Below, piece after piece: positions 1-28,484 of a stretch of DNA of 30,796 nucleotides. Numbering within the stretch: the stretch's first letter is position 1; each line of letters begins with the position of its first letter. The stretch is from positions 1 to 30,796 of IMG/VR virus record IMGVR_UViG_3300013286_000036; one strand, 5' to 3'. Source of the DNA: a virus. The position numbers were made by a program, and so were the translations under genes. The notes beneath the pieces were generated by a model. The model was not told the origin of the DNA. It did no database searches and saw nothing but the letters and a program-made list of their open reading frames with translations.

Positions 1-3000
1 AGTGCTGTCAATGCTATCAACAACATCAGCGCATTGACCATTAGCAATTCAAGCACAGTTGGCGTGACATTCCTTGTGAATCAATTTGTAATTCAAGGCA
101 CACAAGTAACAATCAGCGGTGCAAGCATCTCAGGCAATTTAACGGTAGGCGGTGTTGCTTTAGCGGCAAGTCAAGTGTATTTTCTTGGAAATGTAACGCC
201 CTACTCAGCGCAGTTGTTCAGCAGCTATGTGTCTGCAATAGGCGGTCAAAACCCATTGGCCATAACTGGATCAACCACAACTGGAGCCACATTTACCACT
301 AATGCACCTTCAGCAATTACCACCATTGCTCAGGCAGTTACTGGAATTACTTTTGCAGTAACACCTCAGATTGTGGGCTATTCAACACCAAGCACTTACT
401 ATGTGATGAATACCAACGGTGGCACTAACATGCAGTTGACCAGCAGCTTGGCCAATGCTCTAGTCAGCAATCCTGTACTTATATCCGGTTTGGGTGCCAC
501 AAGCGGCCTTACAACAACCGCAACGCCCAGCACCATCACGGGCTATAGCAGTGGTACAACATACTATATTGCAACCACCAACGGTTCAACTCAGGCCACT
601 TTGAGTGCAACACCGCTGATTACTCTTAACAATGTGCAATACGCTTCGGCATCCACTATCAGCTTTACAGCCACTGGATACACACTTACAGTGGGCATGC
701 CTTTGTCATTCAGTAATCCAGGTATTGCAGGCACATTACAAATTGGCGGCATAACAATTGCTTCAGGACAAGTGTACTACATTGGTGCACCGTTTACATC
801 AACCAGTGCAACCTTGTACGCAAGTGCATCCAATGCCAGCACCAGCAGCAGCCCATTATCCATTACCGCGGGCACTGCCAACGGCACATTTACACTAGGA
901 GGCGTGCCGGTAGTGACCACATTTGGCAATGCTTATGCAGGTCTGACTTACACTTTAAACAGCATAGCCACTTATCCTGGCTCGTCAACTACATACTATA
1001 TTGGCACTACTAATGGATACAACACATTCACTCTCAGTACTGGCCCCAACGGTTTGGGTCAGTTAATCACTGCTCAAGGCATCCCAACGGGGTTGACATT
1101 CTCGGCAGTGCCACAATTCATCAGCGGTTACAGCAGTCCCAGCAGCTATTACATCACAGCTACCAATACCACAACTCAATTCACACTCAGCGGCACACCG
1201 GGAGGACCAGCTATAGCCACAGTGGTTGGTACCCCAACTGGGTTAAGTTACAGTATCAGTGCTCCTAGTTTGTTGGGCTACAGCCCGGGCGCCACTTATT
1301 ACATCACCAGCACCAATGGCACCAATGGCTTTACACTCAGCTCACAACCTCAAAGCACGCCGCTGTCAACCACAGCAGGCATTCCTACAGGATTGGTATT
1401 CACGGTGCAGGCCCCACTAATCACTCCCACATACTCCAGCCCAACCACCTACTACATCGCCAGCACCAATGGCACCAACTTGGCACAACTGAGTTTAAGT
1501 AATCCCGCAGTGAGTACCATTTTGGGACTAACACTTACTTCCGTGGCATACAGCAGTTCAACTCAGATATCTTTTGCCAGCACTGGTTCAGCACTAGCAG
1601 CTGGCACACTGATATCCTTACGGGGAACCAGTATCACAGGCAACATGACCATTGGTACTGTTGGCATAGCTGCAAGTCAAACCTACTTCCTAGGCAACAC
1701 AACAACTACATCAGCAAGTTTGTTCTCAACCTACGCCAATGCCATTGCCAATACGGGCCCATTGACCATCAGTAACGGCACAACAACTGGAGCCATATTC
1801 ACAGCCAGCCAGGGTATTGTTACACAAGGCAGTTCAACCACTATCAGTTTCCCAACAACCGGCACAGCACTACAGAATGGCACCATAGTTACAATCAGTG
1901 GCAACAACATCTCTGGCACTATGACCATTGGTGGTGTTGCACTTTTAACATCACAAACCTATTACATGGGCAACGTGTCCACAACTTCAGCTAGCTTGTT
2001 TGCCACATTTAGTGGTGCTGTGGCCAATAGTGGTGCGCTAACAATCAGCAGCGGTACTACAGTGGGTGCTCAGTTTACAGCCAGCGGTGGTGCACCTATC
2101 AGCACAGTACCGGGCACACTGACTGGTGTCACAATGACAGCTTATGTGGCAACACTGACCTATGCGTTCCAAAGTGTTTCACCATTCCCAGCTGGTGGTG
2201 CCATACAGATCACTGGATTCAGTGCGCAACCTGCATTTAACGGCAATTGGGTGGTGCAGTCATCTAACAGCACCACTATCGTGGTTGCCATATATACAAC
2301 AACCGCACTCACAGGCTCAGTCATGGGCAACATAACTGGTGCCAGTAGTTTGTACATGACAGTTACATTGAGTAACAATTTGACTACAACTGCTTCTGGC
2401 ACCTACGCCTTCTATGACGGAGGTGCGGCAGGTAGCAATAGTTTTGGTATTACAACATCAAGCAATCTTGCAGTGGGGCAACTAATTTCAGGTACAGGTA
2501 TTCCAACAGGTACCACTATCTTAGCACTACTCAACATGGTAGACGCCAATAACGTTCCCACAAACATAGGCGTGGTTTTGAGCAACAATTTAACAACACA
2601 GGCAACGGGCACTTACAATGCCTACAATGTAGGCGGAGCAGGCACATATACCGTTTCAGGATCAACTCAATTGGTAACCAGCACAGCAATGGCAGCGCAG
2701 AGTTTCACTGTGACGCCAAGCCAAACTGTGGCAGGAACTATTCTTGATGGTACAACGGCAAGTATTAATGGCGGAAATACCATATTTACGCCCACAAACA
2801 ATTCAGCAAGCGTGGCAATCGTAAATCCAATCCAGATTTTATTGATAAAAAATGGAGCGAGATTAACAGGATGGCTAAATAAGAGTAGACCAGTGTGGAA
2901 CACAATAACAAAGTACGGCGACTACACAATAAATAGTTCTGGACAGATTGTTTTCACAAGCCCACCGCAGGTTGGAGATATCGTAGCATCTACAGTATTA

Positions 3001-3072
3001 GTTGGCAATAGCACAAACCCATTAGTGGCTTACTATCCATTTAACGCAGTTGATGTGGTTACCGGAACTTAA
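1..3072 (+). CDS. Giant repeat-rich virion structural protein (5' partial)
   Basis: The frame is open from base 1, and the first codons (SAVNAINN...) are the tail of a repeat unit seen again downstream, so the true start lies upstream and 1023 residues are visible. The TTG at 34 is not a credible start. The protein is rich in Ser, Thr, Gly, Asn and Ala and has almost no charged residues until the last 80 or so. It is built from at least two alternating modules: one with the motif Y-x3-TYYI-x2-TNGT (six copies, 376-1473) and one containing GxMTIGGVAL-x3-QTYYxGN followed by GALTISSGTT. The C terminus (LIKNGARLTGWLNKSRPVW...) is non-repetitive and may be the attachment or assembly end. It lies 28 nt before another giant structural gene on the same strand, probably co-transcribed. 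I infer an extended beta-rich fibre or surface decoration. The exact virion position is unknown. Confidence 0.7.
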   Translation, partial: SAVNAINNISALTISNSSTVGVTFLVNQFVIQGTQVTISGASISGNLTVGGVALAASQVYFLGNVTPYSAQLFSSYVSAIGGQNPLAITGSTTTGATFTTNAPSAITTIAQAVTGITFAVTPQIVGYSTPSTYYVMNTNGGTNMQLTSSLANALVSNPVLISGLGATSGLTTTATPSTITGYSSGTTYYIATTNGSTQATLSATPLITLNNVQYASASTISFTATGYTLTVGMPLSFSNPGIAGTLQIGGITIASGQVYYIGAPFTSTSATLYASASNASTSSSPLSITAGTANGTFTLGGVPVVTTFGNAYAGLTYTLNSIATYPGSSTTYYIGTTNGYNTFTLSTGPNGLGQLITAQGIPTGLTFSAVPQFISGYSSPSSYYITATNTTTQFTLSGTPGGPAIATVVGTPTGLSYSISAPSLLGYSPGATYYITSTNGTNGFTLSSQPQSTPLSTTAGIPTGLVFTVQAPLITPTYSSPTTYYIASTNGTNLAQLSLSNPAVSTILGLTLTSVAYSSSTQISFASTGSALAAGTLISLRGTSITGNMTIGTVGIAASQTYFLGNTTTTSASLFSTYANAIANTGPLTISNGTTTGAIFTASQGIVTQGSSTTISFPTTGTALQNGTIVTISGNNISGTMTIGGVALLTSQTYYMGNVSTTSASLFATFSGAVANSGALTISSGTTVGAQFTASGGAPISTVPGTLTGVTMTAYVATLTYAFQSVSPFPAGGAIQITGFSAQPAFNGNWVVQSSNSTTIVVAIYTTTALTGSVMGNITGASSLYMTVTLSNNLTTTASGTYAFYDGGAAGSNSFGITTSSNLAVGQLISGTGIPTGTTILALLNMVDANNVPTNIGVVLSNNLTTQATGTYNAYNVGGAGTYTVSGSTQLVTSTAMAAQSFTVTPSQTVAGTILDGTTASINGGNTIFTPTNNSASVAIVNPIQILLIKNGARLTGWLNKSRPVWNTITKYGDYTINSSGQIVFTSPPQVGDIVASTVLVGNSTNPLVAYYPFNAVDVVTGT
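376..1473 (+). repeat. Protein-level repeats, Y-x3-TYYI-x2-TNGT module (six copies)
   Basis: Copies begin near 376, 541, 973, 1126, 1276 and 1432. Each reads approximately GYSSPxTYYIxxTNGTxxFTLS, followed by a variable linker containing xxGxPTGLxF. Copies have diverged at the DNA level. The same module appears in the minus-strand gene at 8156-11863, for example GYSPGSSYVISVTNGTSTF. Confidence 0.75.
1552..2085 (+). repeat. Protein-level repeats, TIGGVAL / ALTISSGTT module
   Basis: Two adjacent units of about 85-90 residues (roughly 1552-1809 and 1810-2085) share the order: TISF-like strand, SGxxISGxMTIGGVAL, SQTYYxGN, TSASLF, then GxLTIS-GTTxGAxFTAS. Further copies lie near 76-303 and 649-905, and a truncated one opens the window. 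One clear copy is in the minus-strand gene around 9720-9960. Confidence 0.75.
2874..2935 (+). promoter_or_regulatory. Two late-promoter-like boxes inside the upstream gene
   Basis: GCTAAATA at 2874-2881 and AATAAATA at 2928-2935 match the late-promoter boxes found before other genes here. They lie inside the 3' end of the first giant gene, about 165-225 nt before the next start, and could give the 1642-aa gene its own late transcript. A six-base core also occurs by chance, so this is weak. Confidence 0.25.
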
Positions 3073-3100: not shown

Positions 3101-6100
3101 ATGGCAAGAAAAATTTTAAATGATACCACGTATACATTTAACCCTACAACAAGAACTGTAACAATACCTCGTTACATCGCTAGAGAGAAACTGGTTTTGA
3201 TCACTAACGTTACCAGTAACGTGGTTATCTATAACTTTTCAGATTCTACTTTAACCGCAACCAGCTATACCGCACTGGGCGGTCAAACACAGCCTTACAG
3301 TCAACTGGGCGGCGATGCTGGTTTGACAACGATTATTCTGAACTACAACACAGGTGCAATGAATGCAACTGACAAGTTGCAGATATTGATTGATGAGTAT
3401 GAAGAAAAGTTTTTCCCAGCTGAAGTTTTGCTTGACCCAGCAGATAAACTGCGTGTTTCAACACCACAGTCATTGATTGATACTGACTTTGAATACAGTT
3501 TGCAGTCCACCAAGTGGGAATTCTTCCAGCAACAAAACTTCGTGGCATCGGTTTTTACTCGTCCAAGCGACACACCACTGGCCCCAATCTTTGGAGGAGC
3601 TGGTTTCAGTATCGTTAATCCTACCATTACCACAGACGGTGCAACTGGCACAATCAGTGGATTGGCTATGCCGTCCGCTGCTCCAGTAGGTACTTTTGTT
3701 TATATCGTTGAAGCCACTACAACCACTGTGTTTGCAGCAGTGCGTTTTGCTGTTAAAACCAGCGGTAATACCACCAACACCTTGCAGTTTAATACCACAG
3801 CTGCGGCAGGAACCTATACTCCGCAACTGGTAGTGGTAGGCGGCGTGCCGGGCACAGCAAGTAATCCAACTTATGCTGTGTTCAGTGTGTCAAACGACAT
3901 TACACTCAAGGGCAGTAATTTAATATCCGGTTCACCTATCCTGGTGCAAGAAGCCATAGACGAAGCACACACTGACGGCACATTCCAGGCCACATATGTG
4001 AATCAAGCAGATGGTGCTATCGGTTACTTGACCAAAGGCAACTTCTTCAACCAGTCAATAAACTCCAAGGCTACCACTGTGATTTATCAGGGTAACTTTT
4101 ATGCTACAGGTTACGGCATTGCAAGTCAAATTCCAGTGCAAGCTGTTAATGCATCAGCAACTGCGGCGGGCAGTGCTATCACTGTAACAACATTTGGTCC
4201 TCACAATTTGGTACCAGGCGCTCCAATCTTTATAGGTAATACTACACAAGTAAATGCCAATTTACCTACCTATATTGCGTCTGTGCCACAGCCCAATCAG
4301 TTCACATACTACAACTTGAACGCCATGTCAGCTAGTGGATCTATTATTCAAACCACGCCTGGTTATTTGTACAGTTCAACATTGACGCCTCCAAACAACC
4401 CAACCTATGTTATTGTCCGTCCAGAAGGATTTCAATTGCATAGAAGCGGTGACGGTGGTATTTCAATAACTCCAGGCAACAACGTGGTAGGTGCTCAAAG
4501 TCTGCGTCAAACACGCCGTTATTTCCGTTATCAAGCTGGTAAAGGTATTCAGTTCTCTACCGCGGTTACTTTCAAACCAAACTATGATATCACAAGATTG
4601 AGTGTTAACGGTAGCATCTTAACAATTGAAACTGACCAAGATCACGGTTTGCAACCAGGCGCTATAGTAAACCTACGTGCCATTTTAAGTATTGCTTCTA
4701 GCGACAATGCCATATACAACAACACATTTTCAGTGTTGCCCACCGTGCAGTCAGCAGCCAAGGTGTTTGCTGTGCAGTTGAGTGGTACTCCAGTTGACTC
4801 AAATCCAGGTGGTGCATTGGCCACAGTTGAAGTGGCTGATGCCAAAGGTTATGCTACTCGCGTGGGACTAATGGATGACAGCAACGGCTTTTTCTGGGAA
4901 TTCGATGGCACATTCTGTAATGCTGTTCGTCGAAATGGCACAACTATTCTAAGAGGCACTGTGAATGTGTTAACCGGCTCTGCTTATGTTGTTGGAACTG
5001 GTTCCACTTATACAAAACAAATCAGCCCAGGCGACAAGGTGATCATCCGTGGTACACCGTACGAAGTGGCACAGGTAGTAAGCGATAACGTTATTTGTAT
5101 TGCCCCTGTGTATCGTGCAGCTACTCCTGCTACCACAAGTGGCACAGCAGGTTTGCCATTTGCCTATATCACCAGCGCCAGCAGCACAACTCAAACAATT
5201 CAATTGAGTCAAACTACAACAGCTACTCAAATATCATTGACTGGCGTGGCTGGTACTGGTTCCGGAGTAACTGGTACTGGTATTACCGGTGTATATGTTA
5301 TGCAAGCAGGTATAGCACCGCAGGTAACACAAACTGTGTCCGGCAATGCTGGTACAACCACTTTGACCATTAGCACCTCCAGTGCAAACTTTTTCCCCGG
5401 TCAATTGATAACCAGTGCAAGCGGTATCCAAGCAAACACTTATATCGCTCAGTCATTTGTGCCAACATCACTAACTTGTCCGATTACACTGCCGTTAACA
5501 GCCACAATCAGCCAAAATGCCAGCACTTATTACATGCCAGCGGCTGGTATGACTATTCAAGGCACTGGTATTCCAAGCAATACACAGGTGAACTCAACTA
5601 CTGCGCCTACTGGCACTGGTAACTTGACTATCAGCATTTTCTTCAATCAAGCATTGACAGCCAACACCACAGCAAGCACATACACATTCGGTGCTATTGC
5701 TGGTACACTCAATCCAACAAATGTTATTGCTGTACCTAACACTTTTGGTATCACAGCGGGCATGGTTATTTCAGGAACCAATATTCCAGGCAATTGCTTG
5801 GTTTCTGGTTTAATTGCCAATGGTTCTGGTATTATTTTGAATCAAGCAATCACTGTAACGGTTACCAACGGTATAACGCTGACATTCCAAGCTCAGAACA
5901 GTTTGTATTATTTGAATCAGACCACAGCGGCAGCCACAACCAGTGGCAATATTTTGACATTGGCTTCTGTAGTGGGTATCAATATTGGGTCACAAATTAC
6001 TGGAAGTAACAACATTCCTCTAGGAAGTTTTGTAACTGGTATTAATACTGCTACCAATCAGCTTACTTTCTACAGTCCATATCCATTCGCAGCCACTCAA

Positions 6101-8029
6101 GGTGTGACTGGTACTGTGGCCAGTAATACTGTACTGGGCTTTGGTTCGCGCATCTTCATATATCAAAGCACTCAGAGTGCCTTGAACGGTGTATTTCCGA
6201 TCATAAGCGCACCTAGCACCAACGTGACGTTCCAGACTCAAACAGCGGCAACTGTTACCAGCACTGGTAGCACTCCAGTCAGCCTGTATGGTTACACCAA
6301 AGTGTATGCAGAAGATCAGTCAGTGAAGAAATACTATGTGCGTGAAATCCGTAGCCCAGTATACTTGTTCAACTTGGATCGTTTAGATGGCACGGGACCT
6401 ACTGGTTACAATCAAGACTTGACCAAGATTCAGATGATTTACATGGATTACACATGGTACGGTGCTGGATTTATCCGCTGGGGTATTCGTGCAACTCAAG
6501 GCGATATTATTTATTGCCACAAAGTACAGCACGGCAACAGAGAGTACCAGGCATATCAGCGTTCAGGCAACGTGCCAGGCCGTTTTGAAGCCATTAACTT
6601 TGGTGCTCGCCAAGCAATTACAGCTCAGATCGCTGCCACTGGCTATAGTCAGGGTGCGTCACCTACCCCAGGAACAATAAATGTGTATGACGCAAGTCGT
6701 TACTTTATTCCCGGCGGAGGTTCAGCCAACGGTGAGCGTAACAACGGCGAAGTATTTGTTGAAGGCGAAGTGTTCTATTACACTGGTATCAGCTCGGTAA
6801 CTGGCACTGCTCCCTGGGGCCAAAACACCGGCGGTGTAACAAGTCTGGCAACAGTTGGTACTGTAACAGTATCAAGCGGCAGTTTGGTTAGCGTTACATT
6901 AACCGCTGGTGGTGCTGGCTACACAGCTGCTCCTCCAGTAACGATCGGTGGTGGCGGTGGCGCAGGTGCAGTGGCCAAAGCAATTGTTAATCCTATCACT
7001 GGTAACATCACAGCCATTCAAGTTACTAGCGGTGGTAATGGTTACACAAGTGCACCAAACGTCTACATTGGTGCTAATCAGTTGACAGGTTGCTTCCGTG
7101 AGTCTACAGTGGTTGCTCTGGGCAACTTGGCAGGTACCCCAACAGTAACAGCTGGTTCAACTGCTATCACTAGTGTGACAAACAGCAACTACTATTTTGT
7201 TGGCATGGTTCTTCCTCCACTAGCTGCTTTTGGTTATGTACCAGCCAAGATCACTGGTATTGGCAGTAACACCATTTATGTAAATCAGATTTGCTTGAAC
7301 GGCCAGAGCGGTGCGCTGCCAAGCGTGACACCAATCAACCGTGGCACATCAACTGCCAGTGTACACTATCCATACAACAACACTGGTAACCCAGTGGCCA
7401 ACGCATGGAATACTACACAGCAGATGACCCCGAGTATTCAACACTGGGGTGTATCAGCAATCATGGACGGACGCTTTGATGCTGACAAATCATATGTGTT
7501 TACTACTCCAAAGCAAACAGCTAGTACACTGCAAGCCAACCAAACAGCACCATTGATTTCACTGCGTGTATCACCAAGTGCGTCGAACGGTTTTGCTCGT
7601 AACTTTGGTATTCGCGATATTATCATGCGCATGCAAGCCAACTTGTATCAGATGGACGTTTACAACGCTGGTTCGTTCCTAGTAACAGTCAAATACAATT
7701 GCAACAGCAACGTGTTTACTCCTGCCTTGTGGACTGCCAACGTGGTTGGTTCAGGTTCACTGAGCCAGATCATTTATCACAATCCAAGCGACATTGTGAC
7801 TGGTGGTGACATTGTTATTGCGTTCTACGCTAACAGTTCAGGCGGTACATTCTTTACAGCAACAAGTGCAGACTTGACGGTTGTCAAGGACTTGGGTAAC
7901 TCAGTGTTTGGTGGTGACGGTGTATTTCCGGACGGTCCAGACTGTATAACAATTTTTGCAACTAACTTGAGCGCTGCTAACAGTCAGCCAATCTTTAGTC
8001 GCATTAGTTGGACAGAAGCTCAAGCGTAA
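3101..8029 (+). CDS. Giant virion structural protein (1642 aa)
   Basis: Starts at an ATG preceded by TTTGGAGAAC, a good Shine-Dalgarno site. The N terminus (MARKILNDTTYTFNPTTRTVTIPRYI, then LVLITNVTSNVVIYNF) and the C terminus (HWGVSAIMDGRFD near residue 1450; DLGNSVFGG and FPDGPD near the end; terminal SWTEAQA) resemble large structural proteins I recall from marine T4-like phages, especially cyanophages. That is from memory, not a search. Between these ends lie inserted repeat modules: HNLVPGAPI- and DHGLQPGAIV-like segments (residues about 370-580), GMVISGTNIPGN-like segments (about 760-930), and two GGxGYTxAPxVxIG segments (about 1270-1325). I infer a virion protein with conserved terminal domains and an expandable middle, possibly baseplate- or fibre-associated. 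A strong terminator follows. Confidence 0.75.
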   Translation: MARKILNDTTYTFNPTTRTVTIPRYIAREKLVLITNVTSNVVIYNFSDSTLTATSYTALGGQTQPYSQLGGDAGLTTIILNYNTGAMNATDKLQILIDEYEEKFFPAEVLLDPADKLRVSTPQSLIDTDFEYSLQSTKWEFFQQQNFVASVFTRPSDTPLAPIFGGAGFSIVNPTITTDGATGTISGLAMPSAAPVGTFVYIVEATTTTVFAAVRFAVKTSGNTTNTLQFNTTAAAGTYTPQLVVVGGVPGTASNPTYAVFSVSNDITLKGSNLISGSPILVQEAIDEAHTDGTFQATYVNQADGAIGYLTKGNFFNQSINSKATTVIYQGNFYATGYGIASQIPVQAVNASATAAGSAITVTTFGPHNLVPGAPIFIGNTTQVNANLPTYIASVPQPNQFTYYNLNAMSASGSIIQTTPGYLYSSTLTPPNNPTYVIVRPEGFQLHRSGDGGISITPGNNVVGAQSLRQTRRYFRYQAGKGIQFSTAVTFKPNYDITRLSVNGSILTIETDQDHGLQPGAIVNLRAILSIASSDNAIYNNTFSVLPTVQSAAKVFAVQLSGTPVDSNPGGALATVEVADAKGYATRVGLMDDSNGFFWEFDGTFCNAVRRNGTTILRGTVNVLTGSAYVVGTGSTYTKQISPGDKVIIRGTPYEVAQVVSDNVICIAPVYRAATPATTSGTAGLPFAYITSASSTTQTIQLSQTTTATQISLTGVAGTGSGVTGTGITGVYVMQAGIAPQVTQTVSGNAGTTTLTISTSSANFFPGQLITSASGIQANTYIAQSFVPTSLTCPITLPLTATISQNASTYYMPAAGMTIQGTGIPSNTQVNSTTAPTGTGNLTISIFFNQALTANTTASTYTFGAIAGTLNPTNVIAVPNTFGITAGMVISGTNIPGNCLVSGLIANGSGIILNQAITVTVTNGITLTFQAQNSLYYLNQTTAAATTSGNILTLASVVGINIGSQITGSNNIPLGSFVTGINTATNQLTFYSPYPFAATQGVTGTVASNTVLGFGSRIFIYQSTQSALNGVFPIISAPSTNVTFQTQTAATVTSTGSTPVSLYGYTKVYAEDQSVKKYYVREIRSPVYLFNLDRLDGTGPTGYNQDLTKIQMIYMDYTWYGAGFIRWGIRATQGDIIYCHKVQHGNREYQAYQRSGNVPGRFEAINFGARQAITAQIAATGYSQGASPTPGTINVYDASRYFIPGGGSANGERNNGEVFVEGEVFYYTGISSVTGTAPWGQNTGGVTSLATVGTVTVSSGSLVSVTLTAGGAGYTAAPPVTIGGGGGAGAVAKAIVNPITGNITAIQVTSGGNGYTSAPNVYIGANQLTGCFRESTVVALGNLAGTPTVTAGSTAITSVTNSNYYFVGMVLPPLAAFGYVPAKITGIGSNTIYVNQICLNGQSGALPSVTPINRGTSTASVHYPYNNTGNPVANAWNTTQQMTPSIQHWGVSAIMDGRFDADKSYVFTTPKQTASTLQANQTAPLISLRVSPSASNGFARNFGIRDIIMRMQANLYQMDVYNAGSFLVTVKYNCNSNVFTPALWTANVVGSGSLSQIIYHNPSDIVTGGDIVIAFYANSSGGTFFTATSADLTVVKDLGNSVFGGDGVFPDGPDCITIFATNLSAANSQPIFSRISWTEAQA

Positions 8030-8155: not shown

Positions 8156-11100
8156 TTATGTTGACACAATAGTGGCAAACACGTCGTTGGCATGACCGCC
8201 AGGAGCACTTGCCAAATTGCTTTGTAGATTTGAAGTTGTTAGCACATTAAACTCAAATTTGCCAGTACGACCATTGGTCACTGTGGCTGTGTTGGCGCCA
8301 GTATTGCTATTAGCAGCCGCCAAGTTTTGAAAGGTAACTGTACAGGCTGCGCCTCCAATGTTCTTAAACCATACCACAACGCGCCTGCCCAAAGGAAAAG
8401 CATGTTCGTATGGTGTGGCACCTGCACCGTTCGCCCCGCTTGTGGCCGTGGTAAAGTCAAAGTAAATGTTGGCTGTGGTGGTACCATTTGTGATAAACAC
8501 AACATTGTTGCCAGTTTGTCCAAAATCTATATAGTAGTTGTTGTTGAAGCTGGTTGGCATATTGGACACAATGGCTTTTTCACCAGGGTTGGCCAATACA
8601 GCAGCTATTATGCCGCCACTTCCTGCTTGGTTTGTACCCACGTTGGTCAAAGTTATTTTTGGTACATTTAGATAACCGCTACCAGGATCTTCCACATAAA
8701 AACCATTTATTGCGCCGCCTGACACTGTTACTGTGGCATATGGCAAGCGTCCGCCTGGCATGTCTGGTTGGCTGAATGTAACTATAGGAGCACTGGTATA
8801 ATTGCTGCCCACGGCCACAATCACACCATTGCTGATACAACCCATTTGAACCAAAGATCCTTGTGCCAAAATGCTGGTGTAGCCCAATACTCCATAAGCC
8901 TGCGCATTGGTTCCCACGAACAGCAGTATACTGGTACCACTCACAATAAAGCCGGTGGTCAATGTGGGCTGTGTGGCATTCATTGTGCCGCCTGAATACA
9001 CATAATAGAAGAATATCAATGCGGCTGAACCACCAGTGCCTGTGGTGCTTTGAATGGCTTTGACATATTGTCCTGTGGCCACAATCAAGCTGGCTGTGTA
9101 CAGCTGGGCCACAATAGGACTGGGATCCTGAAAGTTTATCAATGGTGGACTGAGATAACCAGTGCCTGGATTGTTTATGGCCACTTGTTGTACACCTTGA
9201 CTACTGATCACACCTACCACGGTTTGTGAACCTGAAGTTGTGTTGGCATAGGTCACTTGAGTGACACTGCAACTAGTAACTACATATGTGCCTTGATAGC
9301 CTAAAGGAACAATGTTGCTGACTGTGATCACTTGACCCACATAGAATGGAGGATAAGTTTGGGTGGCAAATGTGAGTGTGGCAACAGAGCCAGAACCGCT
9401 TGCGGCTGTGGTTTGTAGATTTAGGCCTATCATTTGTGGCAAGGCCGATGCTGTGGCACCGCCTGTAAGCACTGGCACCGTTACAACAATATTTGGAGTA
9501 TTTGTTCCTGCGTATTGAGCAGTTGTGACAACTCCGGTACTGGTGCTGCCTGATCCCAAACTTGGAAATACTGTGATAGTGCTGGTGCTAACACTGGCCA
9601 CGTTATAGGTACCGTTGTATCCGCCTGTATTGCCGGCCACGGTGACCTGTTGACTCAATTGGAATGGCACATAGGTTGTTGCGAGGGTCAAACCGGTAAC
9701 AATGCCATACTGTGTGTTAAGTTTCAATATGGTGTTTGCGCCAATGTAAAACACCGCATTGGTTGTGGTACCACTGCTCACTGTTAATGCACCAGTTCCA
9801 GCAATGGCAGCAGCTGCGCTGCTGTACAACTGTATAGATGCTACACCAGTTTGGGCAATATAATATGTTTGATTCAGAGCAATGGTTACACCGCCTATGG
9901 TCATGCTACCACTTATGGCTGAACCGTTATTACCAATAATCATTGGCGTGCCTGATGCAATAATAGATGCTGAATTGAAAGTTTGCACAGTCACAGTGGT
10001 AGTGCCAGCGCCAGTAAATGTGTTGAACACACCACTCAACACGCCCAATGTGGTGGTAATTGGCAAATTGTTTTGATACAGCGTGAATGTGCTAGTGCCG
10101 TTGGTGGCCACAATGGTGTAGATGTTGCCGTCAGTGTAATTCACAATGCTACCGCTTTGAGTGGTGCCCTGTGTACCCGATATAGTAATTGTCATGCCCA
10201 CTTGAAATGTACCAGCTGATTGGGATACACCAAGGGTAAATGCTCCGCCGTTGCCAGCCACCAATACACCATATGTGGTACCGCTGGTGTCAGCTGTTAG
10301 ATTGGCACCCGGTGCACTGGTAGTGACCAAACTGCCACCTGAAGTGTTTAGCAAAGTGAGCAAAATGCCAGGAGATGTTAACGGACTGGCATTAGCATAA
10401 GATCCACTACTGGTGCTAGCGATCACATAGTTGTTTCCAGTGGTATAACCGTTAATGTGATTCAATGTGATGTTTGGAGCAGCACTGGTAAATTGTCCTG
10501 TGCTGGCATTGGATGCCAGGATTATGCCACCTGCGCTAGCGGCCAAACTGAACTGAGTGGTTCCGTTCGTGGCCGCTATAAAGAATGTGGTTGGTCCCGA
10601 ACCATAGGCGCTGGTAGTGGTTGAAGAAGCGTTGAGCACACCCGTGCTTAAGGCATTAGTAAGCGTTATAGCCTGCCCTACAGTGAGCAAATTGGTACCG
10701 TAAGCTGTGGCTAGGGTGAACACATTGCCATAATTTATAGTTACACCAGTAACATTACCTGTACTGGCTGTTGAACCAACTGCGGCGCCACCCACGGTTG
10801 AGCTGATTGTGAATTGATTGGTACTGTTAGTTGCAATCACAAAATACACATTGCCAGTGCTATAGCCAGTGATACTGCCTGAACTAAATGAGCCAGTTAT
10901 TTTTACCTGTTGGCCAATGAACAAAGGTATGCTGGCAGGAGTCGCCAGCGTGATCACACTGGTGGCATTGATGCTGAACAAATTGGTTGAACCATCCGAC
11001 AGTACCGCTGATGGTGCTAGTGAGGCTTTTAATACGCCGCCATTCACTATGGTTGAAGCACTTATGGATCCAGTTATGGTAACAATTTGACCCACGCTAA

Positions 11101-11863
11101 AGGTGTTTTGTGGCAAATTAGTGGTGGTAAGGAAAAATAGACCGCTGTTGTTCACCACACTCAGTTGATTGTATCCATTCACTGTCAAAGTTAATCCAGT
11201 TACTGCTGTGGCCACTGTGGTAATGGGTGTGTAACCTGGATTTTGCAGTGTAAATGTGCTGGTGCCGTTGGTAACGCTGATAACATAACTACTACCAGGC
11301 GAATAGCCTGTAATCACAGCAGTGTTTGGTGTGCCAGTGATGGTTATAATCTGCCCTACAATAAAAAAGCCAGCTGATTGTGCTGTACCGATGGTAAATG
11401 CACCAGTGGTATTGTTGGCTGTCAGTGTGCCATACTGAACACTGGTTAAAATTGAAGTAGTGGCACTGAATGTGTTTTGCAGCGTCTGGGTGGGAAATGT
11501 GATTGTGGCTGTTTGACTGCTCACACTGGTGTTCAGGATTGGCACTATTTGGCTGAATCCTGGATAATAACCACCACCACCCTGTGGACTGATCACATTG
11601 GTAACACTGTAGCCATAGGGCAAATTGTACAGAGCGCCGCCCACGCTTACATTGTGTTGTGCTCCTATGCCACCCAAGGTTTGAAGTGCGCCACTATTAG
11701 AACCATAACTGGCTGTGTATTCGTCAATGAGTACAGTGCCTTTGTTTGGGTTGTTGGTTGAACGAATTGTGAGGTTTGTGCCTGGTGTGTCGCCACCAAC
11801 CAAGGGATAACCTGGGGTTAAAATGTTGTTTGTGCTGACGCCTTGCGCTGTTTGGTTGGCCAT
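8156..11863 (-). CDS. Giant repeat-rich protein, probable virion appendage (1235 aa)
   Basis: Starts at an ATG with GGAG 7 nt upstream and a GCTAAATA late-promoter box beyond it. The N-terminal 110 residues (MANQTAQGVSTNNILTPGY...) and the C-terminal 140 (from NPGEKAIVSNMP) are non-repetitive. Between them are many Ser/Thr/Gly-rich modules of the kinds seen in the plus-strand giants: GYSxGxxYxIxxTNGTxxFTL, FxVGQxITITG, one SGSMTIGGVTIALNQTYYI unit, and GxGYLxxPxI or NYTSAPIVTF units near the C-terminal third. It has no homologue I can name. The late promoter and the shared modules point to a structural, surface-exposed role, such as a fibre or capsid/tail decoration. It is convergent with the 1642-aa gene and transcribed against most of the late region. 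Confidence 0.65.
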   Translation of the reverse strand: MANQTAQGVSTNNILTPGYPLVGGDTPGTNLTIRSTNNPNKGTVLIDEYTASYGSNSGALQTLGGIGAQHNVSVGGALYNLPYGYSVTNVISPQGGGGYYPGFSQIVPILNTSVSSQTATITFPTQTLQNTFSATTSILTSVQYGTLTANNTTGAFTIGTAQSAGFFIVGQIITITGTPNTAVITGYSPGSSYVISVTNGTSTFTLQNPGYTPITTVATAVTGLTLTVNGYNQLSVVNNSGLFFLTTTNLPQNTFSVGQIVTITGSISASTIVNGGVLKASLAPSAVLSDGSTNLFSINATSVITLATPASIPLFIGQQVKITGSFSSGSITGYSTGNVYFVIATNSTNQFTISSTVGGAAVGSTASTGNVTGVTINYGNVFTLATAYGTNLLTVGQAITLTNALSTGVLNASSTTTSAYGSGPTTFFIAATNGTTQFSLAASAGGIILASNASTGQFTSAAPNITLNHINGYTTGNNYVIASTSSGSYANASPLTSPGILLTLLNTSGGSLVTTSAPGANLTADTSGTTYGVLVAGNGGAFTLGVSQSAGTFQVGMTITISGTQGTTQSGSIVNYTDGNIYTIVATNGTSTFTLYQNNLPITTTLGVLSGVFNTFTGAGTTTVTVQTFNSASIIASGTPMIIGNNGSAISGSMTIGGVTIALNQTYYIAQTGVASIQLYSSAAAAIAGTGALTVSSGTTTNAVFYIGANTILKLNTQYGIVTGLTLATTYVPFQLSQQVTVAGNTGGYNGTYNVASVSTSTITVFPSLGSGSTSTGVVTTAQYAGTNTPNIVVTVPVLTGGATASALPQMIGLNLQTTAASGSGSVATLTFATQTYPPFYVGQVITVSNIVPLGYQGTYVVTSCSVTQVTYANTTSGSQTVVGVISSQGVQQVAINNPGTGYLSPPLINFQDPSPIVAQLYTASLIVATGQYVKAIQSTTGTGGSAALIFFYYVYSGGTMNATQPTLTTGFIVSGTSILLFVGTNAQAYGVLGYTSILAQGSLVQMGCISNGVIVAVGSNYTSAPIVTFSQPDMPGGRLPYATVTVSGGAINGFYVEDPGSGYLNVPKITLTNVGTNQAGSGGIIAAVLANPGEKAIVSNMPTSFNNNYYIDFGQTGNNVVFITNGTTTANIYFDFTTATSGANGAGATPYEHAFPLGRRVVVWFKNIGGAACTVTFQNLAAANSNTGANTATVTNGRTGKFEFNVLTTSNLQSNLASAPGGHANDVFATIVST

Positions 11864-16801: not shown

Positions 16802-17443
16802 ATGATTATTGGCATATGCGGGTTTATTGGTTCGGGCAAAGACACCATTGCGGACTATCTAACAAATTTCCATGGATACAGACGAGAAAGTTTTGCTAAT
16901 AGCTTAAAAGATGCGGTGTCTGGCGTGTTTGGCTGGGACCGAACCATGCTGGAAGGGCGCACAAAAAGTGCTCGAGAATGGCGTGAACAAGTGGATCCAT
17001 GGTGGGCGGAACGCTTGAGCATGCCGCAGTTGACTCCGCGCTGGGTGTTGCAATACTGGGGAACTGAAGTATGTCGCAAGGCATTTCACGACGATATCTG
17101 GATTGCCAGCTTGGAAAACAAACTGCGTAACAGCACTGATGACATTGTGATCAGCGACTGCCGCTTTCCCAACGAAATCAAGTCAATTAGAAATGCTGGC
17201 GGAATTGTTATTCGTGTGGTGCGCGGTTCAGAGCCTGAATGGTATCAAGTGGCACACTATGCAAATCAAGGCGTAGAAATGTTTATGGAAAAATTATCAA
17301 GCTATGGCATTCACGCCAGCGAAACTGCATGGGTGGGCACTGAATTTGATCATGTGCTGGACAACAACGAAACCATAGACGACCTTTACAATCAAATACA
17401 CAGCCTTATAAATCTGGAACCAAGTCACCTTGCCGCCATTTGA
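16802..17443 (+). CDS. 1: Deoxynucleoside monophosphate kinase (gp1-like)
   Basis: A P-loop at residues 7-14 (GFIGSGKD) opens the protein, followed by LQYWGTEVCRKAFHDDIW and VISDCRFPNE, both characteristic of phage dNMP kinases such as T4 gp1. The enzyme phosphorylates dNMPs to dNDPs in the cytoplasm, feeding phage DNA synthesis and restoring hydroxymethylated or recycled nucleotides in T4. At 213 aa it is close to T4's 241. A GGGG stretch 6 nt before the ATG is a weak ribosome site. The sigma70-like promoter suggests early or middle expression, although both flanks are late structural genes. The 3' end overlaps the convergent HNH gene by 38 nt. Confidence 0.9.
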   Translation: MIIGICGFIGSGKDTIADYLTNFHGYRRESFANSLKDAVSGVFGWDRTMLEGRTKSAREWREQVDPWWAERLSMPQLTPRWVLQYWGTEVCRKAFHDDIWIASLENKLRNSTDDIVISDCRFPNEIKSIRNAGGIVIRVVRGSEPEWYQVAHYANQGVEMFMEKLSSYGIHASETAWVGTEFDHVLDNNETIDDLYNQIHSLINLEPSHLAAI

Positions 17444-17741
17444 TCCCATCCTTGTGCAGAATTTTTGAGCAATTGGCACACACAGTTTTTAGATTGGCAT
17501 TTCTACAGTTATTGAGATCACCATCCACGTGAAATACGGTGAACACTTCGGGGTGACTGCTTTTGTAACCACATTTGTCACAACTGGATTTGCAAATGTA
17601 ACCCATACGCATCCATCTAGGTATGCCATGATCAGCCCCATGTTTTAGGCAAATGTTACATGCGCCTCTATAGAAAACTTGGTCAGATTTTTTGTAGTTG
17701 ATGGCTCGCGGTCTCATACCGCATTTACACAAAGGTCTCAT
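17406..17741 (-). CDS. HNH endonuclease, zinc-binding
   Basis: 111 aa from the ATG at 17741, chosen over the one at 17756 because a late-promoter box lies 4 nt upstream of 17741. Eight cysteines form two zinc-knuckle groups: C5/C7 with C28/C31, and C54/C57 with C88/C91. The HNH core is H71-V-D-G-D...N77...N83-L, followed by VCANC. The overall pattern (GIPRW, CDKCGYKSSHPEVF, NLKTVCANC) matches small HNH proteins I recall from T4-like marine phages. It may act as a free-standing homing-type nuclease or in DNA processing. It is oriented against both neighbours and overlaps the kinase 3' end by 38 nt, which fits late insertion or a mobile gene. Confidence 0.8.
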   Translation of the reverse strand: MRPLCKCGMRPRAINYKKSDQVFYRGACNICLKHGADHGIPRWMRMGYICKSSCDKCGYKSSHPEVFTVFHVDGDLNNCRNANLKTVCANCSKILHKDGIKWRQGDLVPDL

Positions 17742-17745
17742 ATGA

Positions 17746-17753
17746 TATTTAAG
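17746..17753 (-). promoter_or_regulatory. Late promoter for the HNH gene, minus strand (CTTAAATA)
   Basis: The minus strand reads CTTAAATA, TCAT, ATG. The 13-nt string TAAATATCATATG is identical to that at the gp14 start. No Shine-Dalgarno is present. Confidence 0.6.
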
Positions 17754-17815
17754 CAAGCCAGGCCTTTTTGCGACCTTTTCGTCGAGGTCATATTCAGCTC
17801 ATTTATTCAAATTGC

Positions 17816-24528: not shown

Positions 24529-25005
24529 ATGACCAAAAAATTAGAAGAGATTTTAAACCTGCCTGAAAGCAAAAAAATTATGAAGCATGAAGAAAAAATT
24601 CAAGCTCGAGAAGTTGCAGCGCCTCTTTTGAGAGACATCACGGAGTTTGACAAAATCAGTGCAGCATTGCCCCAGGTCACAGGATTGGGTGATGTGGGTG
24701 ATGGCGAGCTGGATGAATTGGCGCAAAAAGCCAAAGATGCATATGAGGATATCATGGATCTGGGCATGAATGTTGAAGCTAGATACAGTGGTAGATTGTT
24801 TGAAGTTGCGGCCAGTATGCTGGGTCATGCTATCCAAGCCAAAACAGCCAAACTGGATAAAAAACTAAAAATGATTGATCTACAGCTGAAAAAACAAAAA
24901 ATTGATCAGGATGCAAACACAGACGACAGTGTGACCTTGCAGGGGGATGGCGTGATTATCACAGATAGGAACAGCCTGTTAGAAAAACTCAAGCAAATTA
25001 AATAA
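24529..25005 (+). CDS. 16: Terminase small subunit gp16-like
   Basis: 158 aa, close to T4 gp16 (164). The central coiled-coil part has the family pattern: DELAQKAKDAYEDIMDLGMNVEARYSGRLFEVAASMLGHAIQAKTAKLDKKLKMIDLQLKKQKID (residues about 62-126), preceded by an acidic segment. The C-terminal SVTLQGDGVIITDRNSLLEKL recalls the T4 region where VFMGSPTELMDEI occurs. gp16 oligomers recognise phage DNA and regulate the gp17 motor. There is no clear Shine-Dalgarno before the ATG, which is 14 nt after gp4. The stop codon TAA overlaps the TAAATA box of the next gene. In T4 gp17 follows directly; here three genes intervene. Confidence 0.8.
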   Translation: MTKKLEEILNLPESKKIMKHEEKIQAREVAAPLLRDITEFDKISAALPQVTGLGDVGDGELDELAQKAKDAYEDIMDLGMNVEARYSGRLFEVAASMLGHAIQAKTAKLDKKLKMIDLQLKKQKIDQDANTDDSVTLQGDGVIITDRNSLLEKLKQIK

Positions 25006-25008
25006 ATA
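25001..25008 (+). promoter_or_regulatory. Late promoter overlapping the gp16 stop codon (AATAAATA)
   Basis: AATAAATA overlaps the TAA stop of gp16 (25003-25005). A 17-nt interval containing AGGA leads to the ATG at 25026, so the expected leader is short but carries a ribosome site. Confidence 0.65.
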
Positions 25009-25025
25009 CTACACCAGGACCGCAT

Positions 25026-25652
25026 ATGAAATCATTCAAACAATATCTTACCGAAAGCACCAAAGTCTACGAGTTCAAGATCAAGATCTGTGGCACTTGC
25101 CCCAAAGATTGTAAAAAACAAATCGAATCAGCACTTGGCACCTACAAGCTAGAAAGTTGTAGTGCTGGCAAGAGCATGCCCATACAAGAACATTACCAAG
25201 ATTTTCCAGAGCAAAAAAATCAGCCCATGACTGTGTTTGATGTTTGTGTACATTATCCAACAACCAGTCTCATGATTCGTGACAAAGTATCAGAAGCTTT
25301 GGGCATATCACATGGCTCCATAGCCGTAGTGAGTCCAGCAGACGAGCGTGAGCATGCAATTAACCATGCACATGACCATGCCACTTCTACTGCCATGATT
25401 GGCACAGATTACGAGCCCAGTGATAATTCACATCTGTATGGTGAAAAATATGTGATGAATTTCCTCAAAGAACTTGCTAGCGAAAAGAAAACAGGTCACG
25501 AAATTGATAACATCAATAAACAACTGTTTCCTACAACTGGCATGAACAAAACACAAGCTCAACAGCCTATTGCACAAAAGAAGGCCAGCCACAGTCCGGT
25601 GCCTAATCGACAACAATACAAAGTCGCACCAGCCATGGGAGCAAGACAATGA
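25026..25652 (+). CDS. Putative internal head protein with capsid-targeting N terminus
   Basis: 208 aa. The N terminus MKSFKQYLTES closely matches the capsid-targeting sequence of T4 internal proteins (MKTYQEFIAEA in IPI-IPIII), including an L-x-E site for the gp21-type prohead protease (after E10). The following domain (VYEFKIKICGTCPKDCKKQIESAL, PIQEHYQDFP, FDVCVHYPTTSLMIRDKVSEAL) looks like a small alpha/beta fold with five Cys (22, 25, 29, 45, 74). A His-rich stretch lies at about residues 107-120 (EREHAINHAHDHATS), then a basic Gln/Lys/Pro-rich tail. I infer packaging into the prohead core, cleavage, and possibly ejection with DNA. The 3' end overlaps the next gene by ATGA. AGGA lies 6 nt before the ATG. 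Confidence 0.65.
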   Translation: MKSFKQYLTESTKVYEFKIKICGTCPKDCKKQIESALGTYKLESCSAGKSMPIQEHYQDFPEQKNQPMTVFDVCVHYPTTSLMIRDKVSEALGISHGSIAVVSPADEREHAINHAHDHATSTAMIGTDYEPSDNSHLYGEKYVMNFLKELASEKKTGHEIDNINKQLFPTTGMNKTQAQQPIAQKKASHSPVPNRQQYKVAPAMGARQ

Positions 25653-26440
25653 ATTTGAAAGAATTAATAGCCAAGATGACAGCGATAGAAGAAGGCGCTC
25701 CTGTGGCTCCTACTCACACTGATGCACCGGCCGATCAAGAAGGCATCATAATCGGAAGTCCCATGGGAGCAATGATGGGTCATTCTGAGGCACCGCACCA
25801 GCAAGACAATGTAACGATGAGCGTGAACCTCAATGGGCAAGGCACAGGTGGTGTTAGAGATCTAATGAACATCTTGAAAGATATTGAGCAATCGTCTGAC
25901 CATGATCAGGATGACCGCATGCAGGACATGCTGTTTGGTGCAGAAGAAAAACAAATGTACGACGGTTATGAAAATAGTCAGCATGGTCATGACGGAGCGA
26001 CTACATTTGGCATAGACAGCATAACTCACCATGGAGATGACATGCACAAAGGCAGTGCCAAAGAACCGCATAAAAAACACGGTGGCGGCAATCCCTATAA
26101 GGAATCCCTGGAAGCCCGTTTGTCACGCATGTATCAAGAAATCAAAGAAGCCGCAAAGCCAACACCGTTTGATAAATCTCAATACGACGGCGATAGAGAA
26201 GAGCCAGCTGGTAGTAAATCAAAACCAACACCAAAGGGCGAACTAGGAAAAACATTGCGTAAACGATTAGGTGAGCCTGAAAAGAAAGTTAACGAAGCTG
26301 ACCGCACCATGAGTCGTGCAGCCAAAGGCTATGAGAAGTACGGTAAAAAAGGTATGACAGCTTTAGCCAAAGCAGGTCGCGAAGGCAAAGATTTGGACAA
26401 GGTCAGAGACAAATTTAACAAATACAAGGATAAATCATGA
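25649..26440 (+). CDS. Putative prohead core / internal protein, His-rich
   Basis: 263 aa, highly charged and low in hydrophobics. It begins MNLKELIAKMTAIEEGAP, an amphipathic helix ending in I-E-E/G, which fits the I/L-x-E rule of T4 prohead protease sites. Residues about 83-144 are rich in His and Asp (SDHDQDD, SQHGHDGA, THHGDDMHK, HKKHGGG). The C-terminal 50 residues (EADRTMSRAAKGYEKYGKKGMTALAKAGREGKDLDKVRDKF) form a strongly basic helical region that I recall from other marine T4-like phages. It may bind DNA. The start overlaps the previous gene by ATGA with GGAG upstream. The function is inferred from composition, N terminus and neighbours. Confidence 0.6.
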   Translation: MNLKELIAKMTAIEEGAPVAPTHTDAPADQEGIIIGSPMGAMMGHSEAPHQQDNVTMSVNLNGQGTGGVRDLMNILKDIEQSSDHDQDDRMQDMLFGAEEKQMYDGYENSQHGHDGATTFGIDSITHHGDDMHKGSAKEPHKKHGGGNPYKESLEARLSRMYQEIKEAAKPTPFDKSQYDGDREEPAGSKSKPTPKGELGKTLRKRLGEPEKKVNEADRTMSRAAKGYEKYGKKGMTALAKAGREGKDLDKVRDKFNKYKDKS

Positions 26441-26805
26441 ATGCTCAAGAATACAGAACTTTAGTCAACAAACTTGAAAAGATATCAGAAGACCCCATGG
26501 ACATGGTGCCAGATGATATCACAATGAACACGGGTCAGCCCTTGCCAGTGACACAGACTGCTCCTTCTCCTGAAATCCCCACAATTGAAGCACCCACTTT
26601 CAAACAGGCATATGCCCAAGCAGTAAAACAAAAATTAAAAAAATTCAAATGGTGCGGCACTTTTGCAGTTAAAGCAGCAAGCACATCGGCACCTAAACCC
26701 GCAGTATCTGATCCTAAAGTTGACTATGTAGGACAAGAAAATCCCCTGGGCGGCACCATGAAAAATCCAATGAGTTACACTTCCAACAGCAATTTTGGCG
26801 CATAA
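26437..26805 (+). CDS. Small putative core / internal protein (122 aa)
   Basis: Not recognised as a named family. The ATG overlaps the previous stop (ATGA), with AAGGA upstream. The N terminus MNAQEYRTLVNKLEKISEDP is an amphipathic helix ending in I-S-E, parallel to the two preceding proteins. A Pro/Thr-rich acidic linker follows, then a basic patch (AVKQKLKKFKWCGTFAVK, residues about 62-80) with an aromatic-Trp-Cys-Gly motif, and a polar disordered tail. The third member of a coupled cassette between terminase subunits, it ends at a strong terminator. Most likely a minor prohead or scaffold component. Confidence 0.6.
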   Translation: MNAQEYRTLVNKLEKISEDPMDMVPDDITMNTGQPLPVTQTAPSPEIPTIEAPTFKQAYAQAVKQKLKKFKWCGTFAVKAASTSAPKPAVSDPKVDYVGQENPLGGTMKNPMSYTSNSNFGA

Positions 26806-26841: not shown

Positions 26842-26869
26842 AAATAGCTCCTCCGGGAGCTATTTTTTT
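26842..26869 (+). terminator. Rho-independent terminator before gp17
   Basis: A 10-bp stem AAATAGCTCC / GGAGCTATTT with a TCCG loop and a T-run. A small hairpin GCACC...GGTGC (26823-26840) precedes it. The terminator ends 3 nt before the next late-promoter core. Confidence 0.9.
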
Positions 26870-26882: not shown

Positions 26883-28484
26883 ATGGCCAAGAGTCTCGAC
26901 GGCGTTCTAACAAAAAAAGCGCATACCAAAGAAAAATTCACTGAACAGCAAGTGGATAACTTGTTGCAATGCATGACTCCCACGGATGGATATTTGCATT
27001 TTGCTAAGAATTTTTTCTTTATACAGCACCCAGTCAAGGGCAAAATGAAGTTTGAGCCATATGATTATCAAGTGAGGCTGTTACAGGCCTATCATGATCA
27101 TAGATTCAACATCAATATGTTGCCTAGGCAAAGTGGTAAGACCACATGTGCCAGTGCCTACTTACTGTGGTTTGCCATGTTCCACCCTGATCAAACTATA
27201 CTTGTGGCCGCGCACAAGTATACTGGTAGTCAGGAAATAATGCAACGCATACGCTACGGCTATGAATTGTGTCCCGACTACATACGCAGTGGTGTGGTCA
27301 ATTACAACAAAGGGAGTATTGAATTTGACAACGGATCAAGAATTGTATCAGCTACTACTACTGGTAACACCGGTCGTGGCATGTCCATATCCTTACTCTA
27401 TTGCGATGAGTTTGCTTTCGTACAACCTAACATCGCTACTGAATTTTGGACATCGATATCGCCAACACTAGCAACTGGTGGCAGGGCTATCATTACCTCA
27501 ACACCCAACAGTGATGAAGACGAATTTGCCATTATCTGGAAAGAAAGTCAAGACAAGTTTGATGCACACGGCAATGAGCGCACAGACGGAAAAGGCCGCA
27601 ATGGCTTTCATGGATTCAGAGCTGAATGGTACGAGCACCCGGATCGAGATGATGCTTGGAAAACAGTTGAAGAAGGCAGAATTGGCATTGAACGATTTCG
27701 TAGAGAGTATGGTTGTGAATTTCTTATCTATGATGAAACTCTCATCAGTAGCATCAAGCTGGTAGACATGGTGGGCAGAGAGCCCGTGTGGAAAATGGGT
27801 CAAGTGCGATGGTGGCGCAAACCTCAACCAGGCAAGATATACCTTGTGGCCTTAGATCCCAGTTTGGGTACTGGCGGTGACTATGGAGCAATACAAGTGT
27901 TTGAAATGCCGACCATGGTGCAAGTGGCAGAATGGCAACACAACATAACACCCATACAGCAACAGGTCAAAATCTTGCGCGACATACTGAAATATATAGC
28001 AGATGAGCTGGGTGGGGAAAGCTTCAATCAGATCTATTGGAGTGTGGAAAACAACACTGTGGGCGAAAGTGCTTTAGTAGTTATTGAAAATCTTGGCGAA
28101 GAAACTTTTCCTGGCATGTTCATGAGCGAGCCAGGACGCAAGGGACATGTTAAAAAATTCCGCAAAGGATTCAACACCACTTTTGGCACCAAGATTGCCA
28201 CATGTGCCAAGGTAAAATTTCTTGTGGAAGAAGAAAAAATGCTGTTGAACAGCAGACCCATGATAAGTGAGCTTAAAACCTATATTGCCAAAGGCACCAG
28301 TTTTGGTGCCAAAGAAGGACAACACGATGACTTGGTGGCTGCCCTATTGCTGGTAGTGCGCATGAGCATTGTGCTGGCCGAATGGGATCCGGCTGTATTT
28401 GAACATCTAAAGGTAACCAGCGAATGGATATCCGACGACAGTTTTGAACCGCCCTTGCCCATATTCATATCGTCGGGCTTTTGA
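26883..28484 (+). CDS. 17: Terminase large subunit gp17
   Basis: 533 aa with both motor and nuclease domains. Walker A PRQSGKT at 81-87, Walker B LLYCDE at 171-176 with the catalytic Glu, and the coupling motif TSTPN at 205-209. The RNase H-like nuclease has D325 (ALDPS), E389 (VENN) and D482/D483 (HDDLVAALL), corresponding to T4 D401, E458 and D542. It pumps DNA into the prohead through the portal and cuts the concatemer. It is shorter than T4 gp17 (610 aa), mainly at the N terminus. The ATG at 26883 is just after a late-promoter box and lacks a Shine-Dalgarno; no in-frame upstream start is needed. Confidence 0.97.
   Translation: MAKSLDGVLTKKAHTKEKFTEQQVDNLLQCMTPTDGYLHFAKNFFFIQHPVKGKMKFEPYDYQVRLLQAYHDHRFNINMLPRQSGKTTCASAYLLWFAMFHPDQTILVAAHKYTGSQEIMQRIRYGYELCPDYIRSGVVNYNKGSIEFDNGSRIVSATTTGNTGRGMSISLLYCDEFAFVQPNIATEFWTSISPTLATGGRAIITSTPNSDEDEFAIIWKESQDKFDAHGNERTDGKGRNGFHGFRAEWYEHPDRDDAWKTVEEGRIGIERFRREYGCEFLIYDETLISSIKLVDMVGREPVWKMGQVRWWRKPQPGKIYLVALDPSLGTGGDYGAIQVFEMPTMVQVAEWQHNITPIQQQVKILRDILKYIADELGGESFNQIYWSVENNTVGESALVVIENLGEETFPGMFMSEPGRKGHVKKFRKGFNTTFGTKIATCAKVKFLVEEEKMLLNSRPMISELKTYIAKGTSFGAKEGQHDDLVAALLLVVRMSIVLAEWDPAVFEHLKVTSEWISDDSFEPPLPIFISSGF

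Follow-up and report, generated by a model that had tools for sequence, protein, structure and literature searches.

Between the two terminase genes of a jumbo phage lie three overlapping genes, here P1, P2 and P3, which raise the question of whether their products enter the prohead through short N-terminal helices, are trimmed there by a protease and are carried in the mature head. The original prediction was that all three are putative encapsidated proteins with gp21-type cleavage sites, which may serve host takeover or DNA condensation. Its open reading frames, coordinates and N-terminal peptides all proved right on re-reading. Judged from sequence, head entry and trimming now appear likely for P1, plausible for P2 and uncertain for P3; the encapsidation claim probably stands for P1 and P2, given the conserved peptide and the occurrence of P1 homologues in virions, and is weak for P3.

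An apparent late unit between the terminase genes

The window, meaning the whole stretch of 30,796 nucleotides that was analysed, is a 30.8-kb IMG/VR fragment with a T4-superfamily morphogenesis block in the order neck protein, sheath, two tubes, gp4-like head-completion nuclease, gp16-like small terminase, P1-P2-P3, gp17-like large terminase and P4, the neck and sheath being assigned by similarity to the annotated gene order of PA5oct and 121Q. Its source is a T4-superfamily jumbo phage, kin of PA5oct, 121Q and RaK2. The small terminase gene (24529..25005, plus strand) matches phrog_16202 (E 8e-16) and phrog_445, terminase small subunit (E 9e-6), and the large terminase gene (26883..28484, plus strand) matches phrog_36964 (E 7e-125) and Pfam Terminase_6N (E 3e-19). 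P4 (28495..30753, plus strand) is related to virion structural proteins (phrog_13484, E 4e-13) and ends in HES-QELTAMLKIAGLRK, a C-terminal motif considered below. On the minus strand, a small Cys-rich HNH-like gene (17406-17756) adjoins the sheath gene and overlaps the end of a dNMP-kinase-like gene, and this arrangement beside the sheath is seen again in several relatives. Three very large proteins (34-3072, 3101-8029 and 8156-11863) have common low-complexity repeat units like GYSTGTTYYIATTNGSTQATL, and these repeats are probably those of fibres or adhesins.

P1 (25026..25652, 208 aa), P2 (25649..26440, 263 aa) and P3 (26437..26805, 122 aa), all on the plus strand, are late genes joined by ATGA overlaps at 25649-25652 (P1/P2) and 26437-26440 (P2/P3); the three appear translationally coupled because of these overlaps, as had been proposed. 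A T4-type late promoter core, ATAAATA, lies at 25002..25008 on the plus strand, with 17 nt separating it from the start codon of P1, and TAAATA (as ATAAATA) is present upstream of P1 in 63/63 non-identical loci. The heptamer is enriched about 17-22-fold 5' of genes in relatives (31 against 1.8, 24 against 1.1 and 9 against 0.5 expected). An intrinsic-terminator-like hairpin with a T run (26842..26865, plus strand; folding z-score -3.9) closes the unit ahead of gp17, and P1-P2-P3 look like a discrete late unit.

The N-terminal peptide of P1 and its predicted protease

P1 begins MKSFKQYLTE/S11, and residues 1-10 (25026..25055, plus strand) resemble a capsid-targeting propeptide with a predicted cut after E10. 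In the T4 record, IPII and IPIII begin MKTYQEFIAE/A or with an /A-like site, and P1 has the suggested resemblance to these internal proteins. Amber-suppressor work on T4 IPIII has shown that residues 4 and 7 mainly govern targeting and residues 8 and 10 processing, the cleavage motif of gp21 being L/I-x-E (PMC9026906). P1 follows these rules at every position, with hydrophobic or aromatic residues at 4 and 7, L/I at 8 and E at 10, both in the window and in 55 non-redundant relatives, among which residues 1, 2, 3, 7, 8 and 10 are invariant (Y7, L8, E10), residue 4 is F/Y and residues 5, 6 and 9 vary. Because an N-terminal pattern served as the query in one of the scans that contributed to this set, that scan favours sequences with a conserved N-terminus; 17 loci fetched via P4, without P1 patterns, were therefore checked, and all read MKSF[KT][EQH]YLTE[SN]. 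N-termini in unannotated contigs were taken from our own start-site caller, so single genes may be miscalled.

A decamer pattern drawn from the T4 rules (a hydrophobic residue at both 4 and 7, then L/I at 8 and E at 10) picked out P1 alone among the genes of the window (1/21, against 0.01 expected from shuffled N-termini), and in five large relatives it gave one match per genome, always P1. In T4, used as a control, there were three matches only, one of which, IPIII, carries its annotation in the T4 record, while the other two, from their position and established T4 knowledge, we take to be gp24 and IPII. IPII, IPIII and gp24 are all gp21 substrates. The N-terminal pattern of P1 is accordingly beyond chance as a sequence feature, and it argues strongly that P1 has a capsid-targeting peptide of the T4 type and, within it, a gp21-type site. 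Distant homologues retain the peptide, as MKTLQDYLTE/S in Atu_ph07, MKDLNTILTE/S in Vibrio 2.275.O, MNKLQKILTE/L in CBB and MNRLQQILTE/K in 121Q. The annotated start of the Atu_ph07 homologue (L143:9001) is 29 codons too late, and the upstream start gives MKTLQDYLTESKK.

A gp21-family protease was also expected. No peptidase S77 (gp21) gene was detected in the window, a fragment that does not span the portal-gp21-gp23 block, but relatives that do span the region encode one, including PA5oct, 121Q, RaK2, CBB and Atu_ph07 and the IMG/VR relatives G006, G007, G008 and G009. Its absence from a further relative, G005, is meaningless because the whole portal-to-gp23 block is missing there. The major capsid proteins of relatives (67 distinct sequences) have a predicted site, [YH]-L-x-E with S, T or A as the next residue, ahead of a conserved mature start, and HMMER matches the residues after it to the region where mature T4 gp23 starts; those of PA5oct, CBB, 121Q and RaK2 have a predicted L-x-E/S or L-x-E/N site. 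The Y-L-T-E/S of P1 is the same motif as this predicted capsid-protein site, and an [LI]-x-E motif ends the putative N-terminal propeptide in each of the three proteins (LTE/S in P1, IEE/G in P2 and ISE/D in P3).

Glu10 has been lost from P1 in four lineages, namely PA5oct (YYDA), Phosso (YLSS), RaK2 (ILTD) and Erwinia Hallingskeid (ILID), so not every member of the family can be expected to undergo cleavage of P1. Both the protease and the capsid-protein site are intact in PA5oct and RaK2, which places the change in P1 and not in protease specificity. In T4, Asp at position 10 blocks processing without blocking targeting (PMC9026906). Taken together, these observations lead to the sequence-based prediction that P1 is targeted in all lineages and trimmed in some only, with PA5oct, RaK2 and the two others untrimmed. 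Such lineages would form a natural experiment, showing whether targeting can be separated from trimming in the way that the T4 mutants suggested.

The P1 family and its companions P2 and P3

In a tblastn comparison, window P1 matched EST35_0202 of PA5oct (32%, E 1e-6), a protein annotated as structural, detected in the virion by ESI-MS/MS and encoded in the same gene order as in the window. The homologue CBB_210 was identified in CBB virions from 13 unique peptides, which gave 60.5% coverage (PMC5259590 Table 4). Presence in mature virions is shown in this way for these two homologues of P1. At least 445 relatives of P1 are present in IMG/VR, and the family can be followed, by way of relatives and Atu_ph07, to 121Q, RaK2, GAP32 and CBB, to Vibrio 2.275.O and Phosso, and to Erwinia phages. 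Homology to PHROG 14802 (virion structural protein) covers the folded domain, reaching 7e-8 in relatives and 6e-10 in Atu_ph07, although window P1 itself scores an E of 0.057 only against that profile. PHROG 2667, an 'internal head protein' family, aligns weakly from its position 1 with residues 1-40 of the P1 proteins of relatives (E 0.002-0.14). A P1-family profile, run against T4 without a positive control, matched nothing, and body homology to T4 proteins was therefore not found. The order gp4-like, gp16-like, P1 is kept in P1 homologues, and is rearranged in Atu_ph07 and Phosso.

The AlphaFold model of P1 (mean pLDDT 69.5) comprises a helix at residues 4-10, a ferredoxin-like domain of beta-alpha-beta-beta-beta-alpha-beta topology at residues 15-102 (pLDDT by block about 81-93) and a tail that is disordered; the domain as a whole is placed at about residues 14-105. 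Foldseek and VIA-align matches to this model were generic ferredoxin-like folds (ACT, PII and ribosomal S6; best Z 7.8) and uninformative as to function. A viral fold library returned mainly uncharacterised phage proteins, with a weak match to 'Ip7 protein' (rank 47, E 2e-3) that was not relied on.

The position of P1 between the gp16-like and gp17-like genes, found in every relative of the window's clade that was read, would also suit a packaging or neck accessory whose helix binds the terminase, the portal or another partner, the LxE being coincidental and uncut; retention of the helix while E10 was lost in four lineages is in keeping with such a role. The exact agreement of P1 with the T4 residue rules and the presence of the same predicted site in the relatives' capsid protein speak against it, as does the high peptide coverage of the P1 homologue in CBB virions, terminase being normally absent from virions. 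A packaging or neck role is consequently considered improbable, and P1 is preferred as a protein of the head interior.

P2 begins MNLKELIAKMTAIEE/G16 (residues 1-15, 25649..25693, plus strand), a putative targeting helix and cleavage site on a protein of variable length. Its 43 non-redundant relatives range from 153-661 aa and have the N-terminal consensus MN[FL]..L..K[LI].[AS]I[DE]E, with I/L at position 13 in 43/43 and E at position 15 in 38/43. P3 begins MNAQEYRTLVNKLEKISE/D19 (residues 1-18, 26437..26490, plus strand), a weak putative targeting helix and site with Asp as the P1' residue, and carries a conserved short segment, IPTIEAPTFKQAYAQAVKQKLKKFKWCG. It is lineage-restricted, with relatives only in L103, L120 (G009) and L269, and its site reads L-Q-E/A and I-Q-E/A in L269 and G009 and INPSE in L103; in one of four homologues it is thus not clearly retained. 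No relatives of P2 or of P3 were detected among sequenced phages. A looser N-terminal pattern fitting both proteins was dropped as too unspecific, since its matches include genes that are not head genes, the small terminase among them; the case for P2 and P3 rests for this reason on conservation in relatives.

It is a distinct possibility that only P1 bears a genuine targeting peptide, the starts of P2 and P3 being ordinary amphipathic helices with a chance [IL]xE. The false matches of the loose pattern would fit this, together with a helical moment at the P2 start no higher than in shuffles, the Asp at P1' in P3 and the unclear site of P3 in L103. The P2 helix, however, is kept, with [IL] at position 13 throughout and E at position 15 in most relatives, although the length of the protein varies fourfold, and the P3 relatives in L269 and G009 do have [IL]-Q-E/A. 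The helices ending I-E-E/G and I-S-E/D that had been described are correct as sequence; for P2 the conserved helix argues moderately for capsid targeting of the T4 type and for a gp21-type site, and for P3 the argument is weak.

A broader N-terminal pattern, permitting E at positions 8-11, gave 11 matches in G005, where 1.6 were expected and none of 200 shuffles had more than 7. Two adjacent G005 genes (L247:2189-3317, equal to 122189-123317) share nearly the same first 30 residues, beginning MKVTELVQE/S and MKITELVRE/S; an M23 peptidase domain (E 5e-30) is present in the first and no domain was detected in the second, and this pair may possibly represent tag-and-swap head cargo. In PA5oct (MK797984) the broader pattern matches EST35_0150, EST35_0238 and the gp22-like gene. 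The first two are small proteins with N-termini like the capsid targeting sequence (CTS) of T4, MKINDIITE/G (82921-83142) and MKIKDILVE/S (157529-157843), and both were positive by ESI-MS/MS in the virion.

A second motif, ES..[ED]L..ML.[IL]AG or EDQSLARIISLAG, stands at the extreme end of head-region proteins (P4 in the window; also in G005, G006, G008 and G009), and is carried by P4, P5, some P2 proteins and one N-terminally tagged G005 protein. In the window and five relatives there were 7 C-terminal matches, against about 0.3 expected, and the motif is rarely internal. The C-terminus of the gp22-like scaffold, IIDIRRLAGLKF, is similar. It may be speculated, tentatively, that in this clade many proteins are sent to the prohead core by either of two interchangeable tags, one N-terminal and T4-like and the other C-terminal and gp22-like. 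If true, new cargo would be acquired when a tag became fused to a body unrelated to it, as the adjacent G005 genes might illustrate.

Proposed role in the head and comparison with known systems

The reading that we favour with fair confidence is that P1, and probably P2, are late proteins that join the prohead core through an N-terminal helix, are trimmed and are kept in the mature head. During late expression the short amphipathic helix would bring P1, and probably P2, into the core much as the capsid targeting sequence does in T4, with docking on the core through the hydrophobic residues at 4 and 7, after which a prohead protease of the gp21 family would cut at L8-x-E10 and the trimmed bodies would remain in the mature head. 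P1 would be a conserved structural component of the head interior, left after cleavage as a compact ferredoxin-like domain with a disordered tail, and P2 and P3 would be lineage-variable companions reusing the same entry signal.

The functions originally suggested for the three proteins fare less well. T4 internal proteins are strongly basic, variable and lineage-specific. The predicted mature net charges (K+R-D-E) of P1, P2 and P3 are +1, -3 and +1; none of the three is basic in that sense, which argues against DNA condensation, and P1, unlike the T4 proteins, keeps both its sequence and its gene position in jumbo phages that are only very distantly related, which favours a structural head-interior role over a host-specific effector. 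Searches of P1-P3 against Pfam and NCBIfam gave no convincing domain, and no effector-like domain was found with these or with PHROG profiles. The proposal that P1-P3 are ejected with the DNA, acting in the host in takeover or anti-defence, or condense the DNA, does draw on the fact that T4 proteins with such a peptide include ejected ones, for example IPI, an inhibitor of a restriction enzyme (PMC9026906), and on the several CTS-like N-termini that G005 has on unrelated bodies, including the M23 peptidase. On balance this proposal is judged unlikely, and retention of P1 as a structural part of the head interior is preferred.

For a family formerly annotated only as structural or hypothetical, and conserved not only in RaK2-like and PA5oct-like phages but also in many uncultured jumbo phages, a head-interior, protease-trimmed role is thus likely. 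The T4 targeting rules are indicated to hold over a very wide range of phages, and the P1 tag could serve to load proteins into jumbo heads.

Among known systems, the closest parallel at the N-terminus is with T4 IPI, IPII and IPIII, which like P1 have a ten-residue peptide with aromatic or hydrophobic residues at 4 and 7, L/I at 8 and E at 10, a small residue after the cut and a phage lineage with a gp21-type protease. No homology was detected between their bodies and that of P1, and the T4 proteins are accessory, whereas P1 is a conserved core gene between terminase genes and is not strongly basic. A second parallel is offered by T4 gp24 (MAKINELLRE/S) and the gp23-like capsid protein of the relatives (YLxE/S), which share with P1 an N-terminal propeptide ending L-x-E/S; these are shell proteins, whereas P1 is predicted to have a small ferredoxin-like domain. 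The closest parallel in the body is with PA5oct EST35_0202, CBB_210 and 121Q gp557 (PHROG 14802), which are homologous to P1 and encoded in the same order of tube, gp4-like, gp16-like and P1. Members of this family are found in the virions of PA5oct and CBB and are annotated without a named function, and while EST35_0202 is without the cleavage Glu, the P1 of the window retains it.
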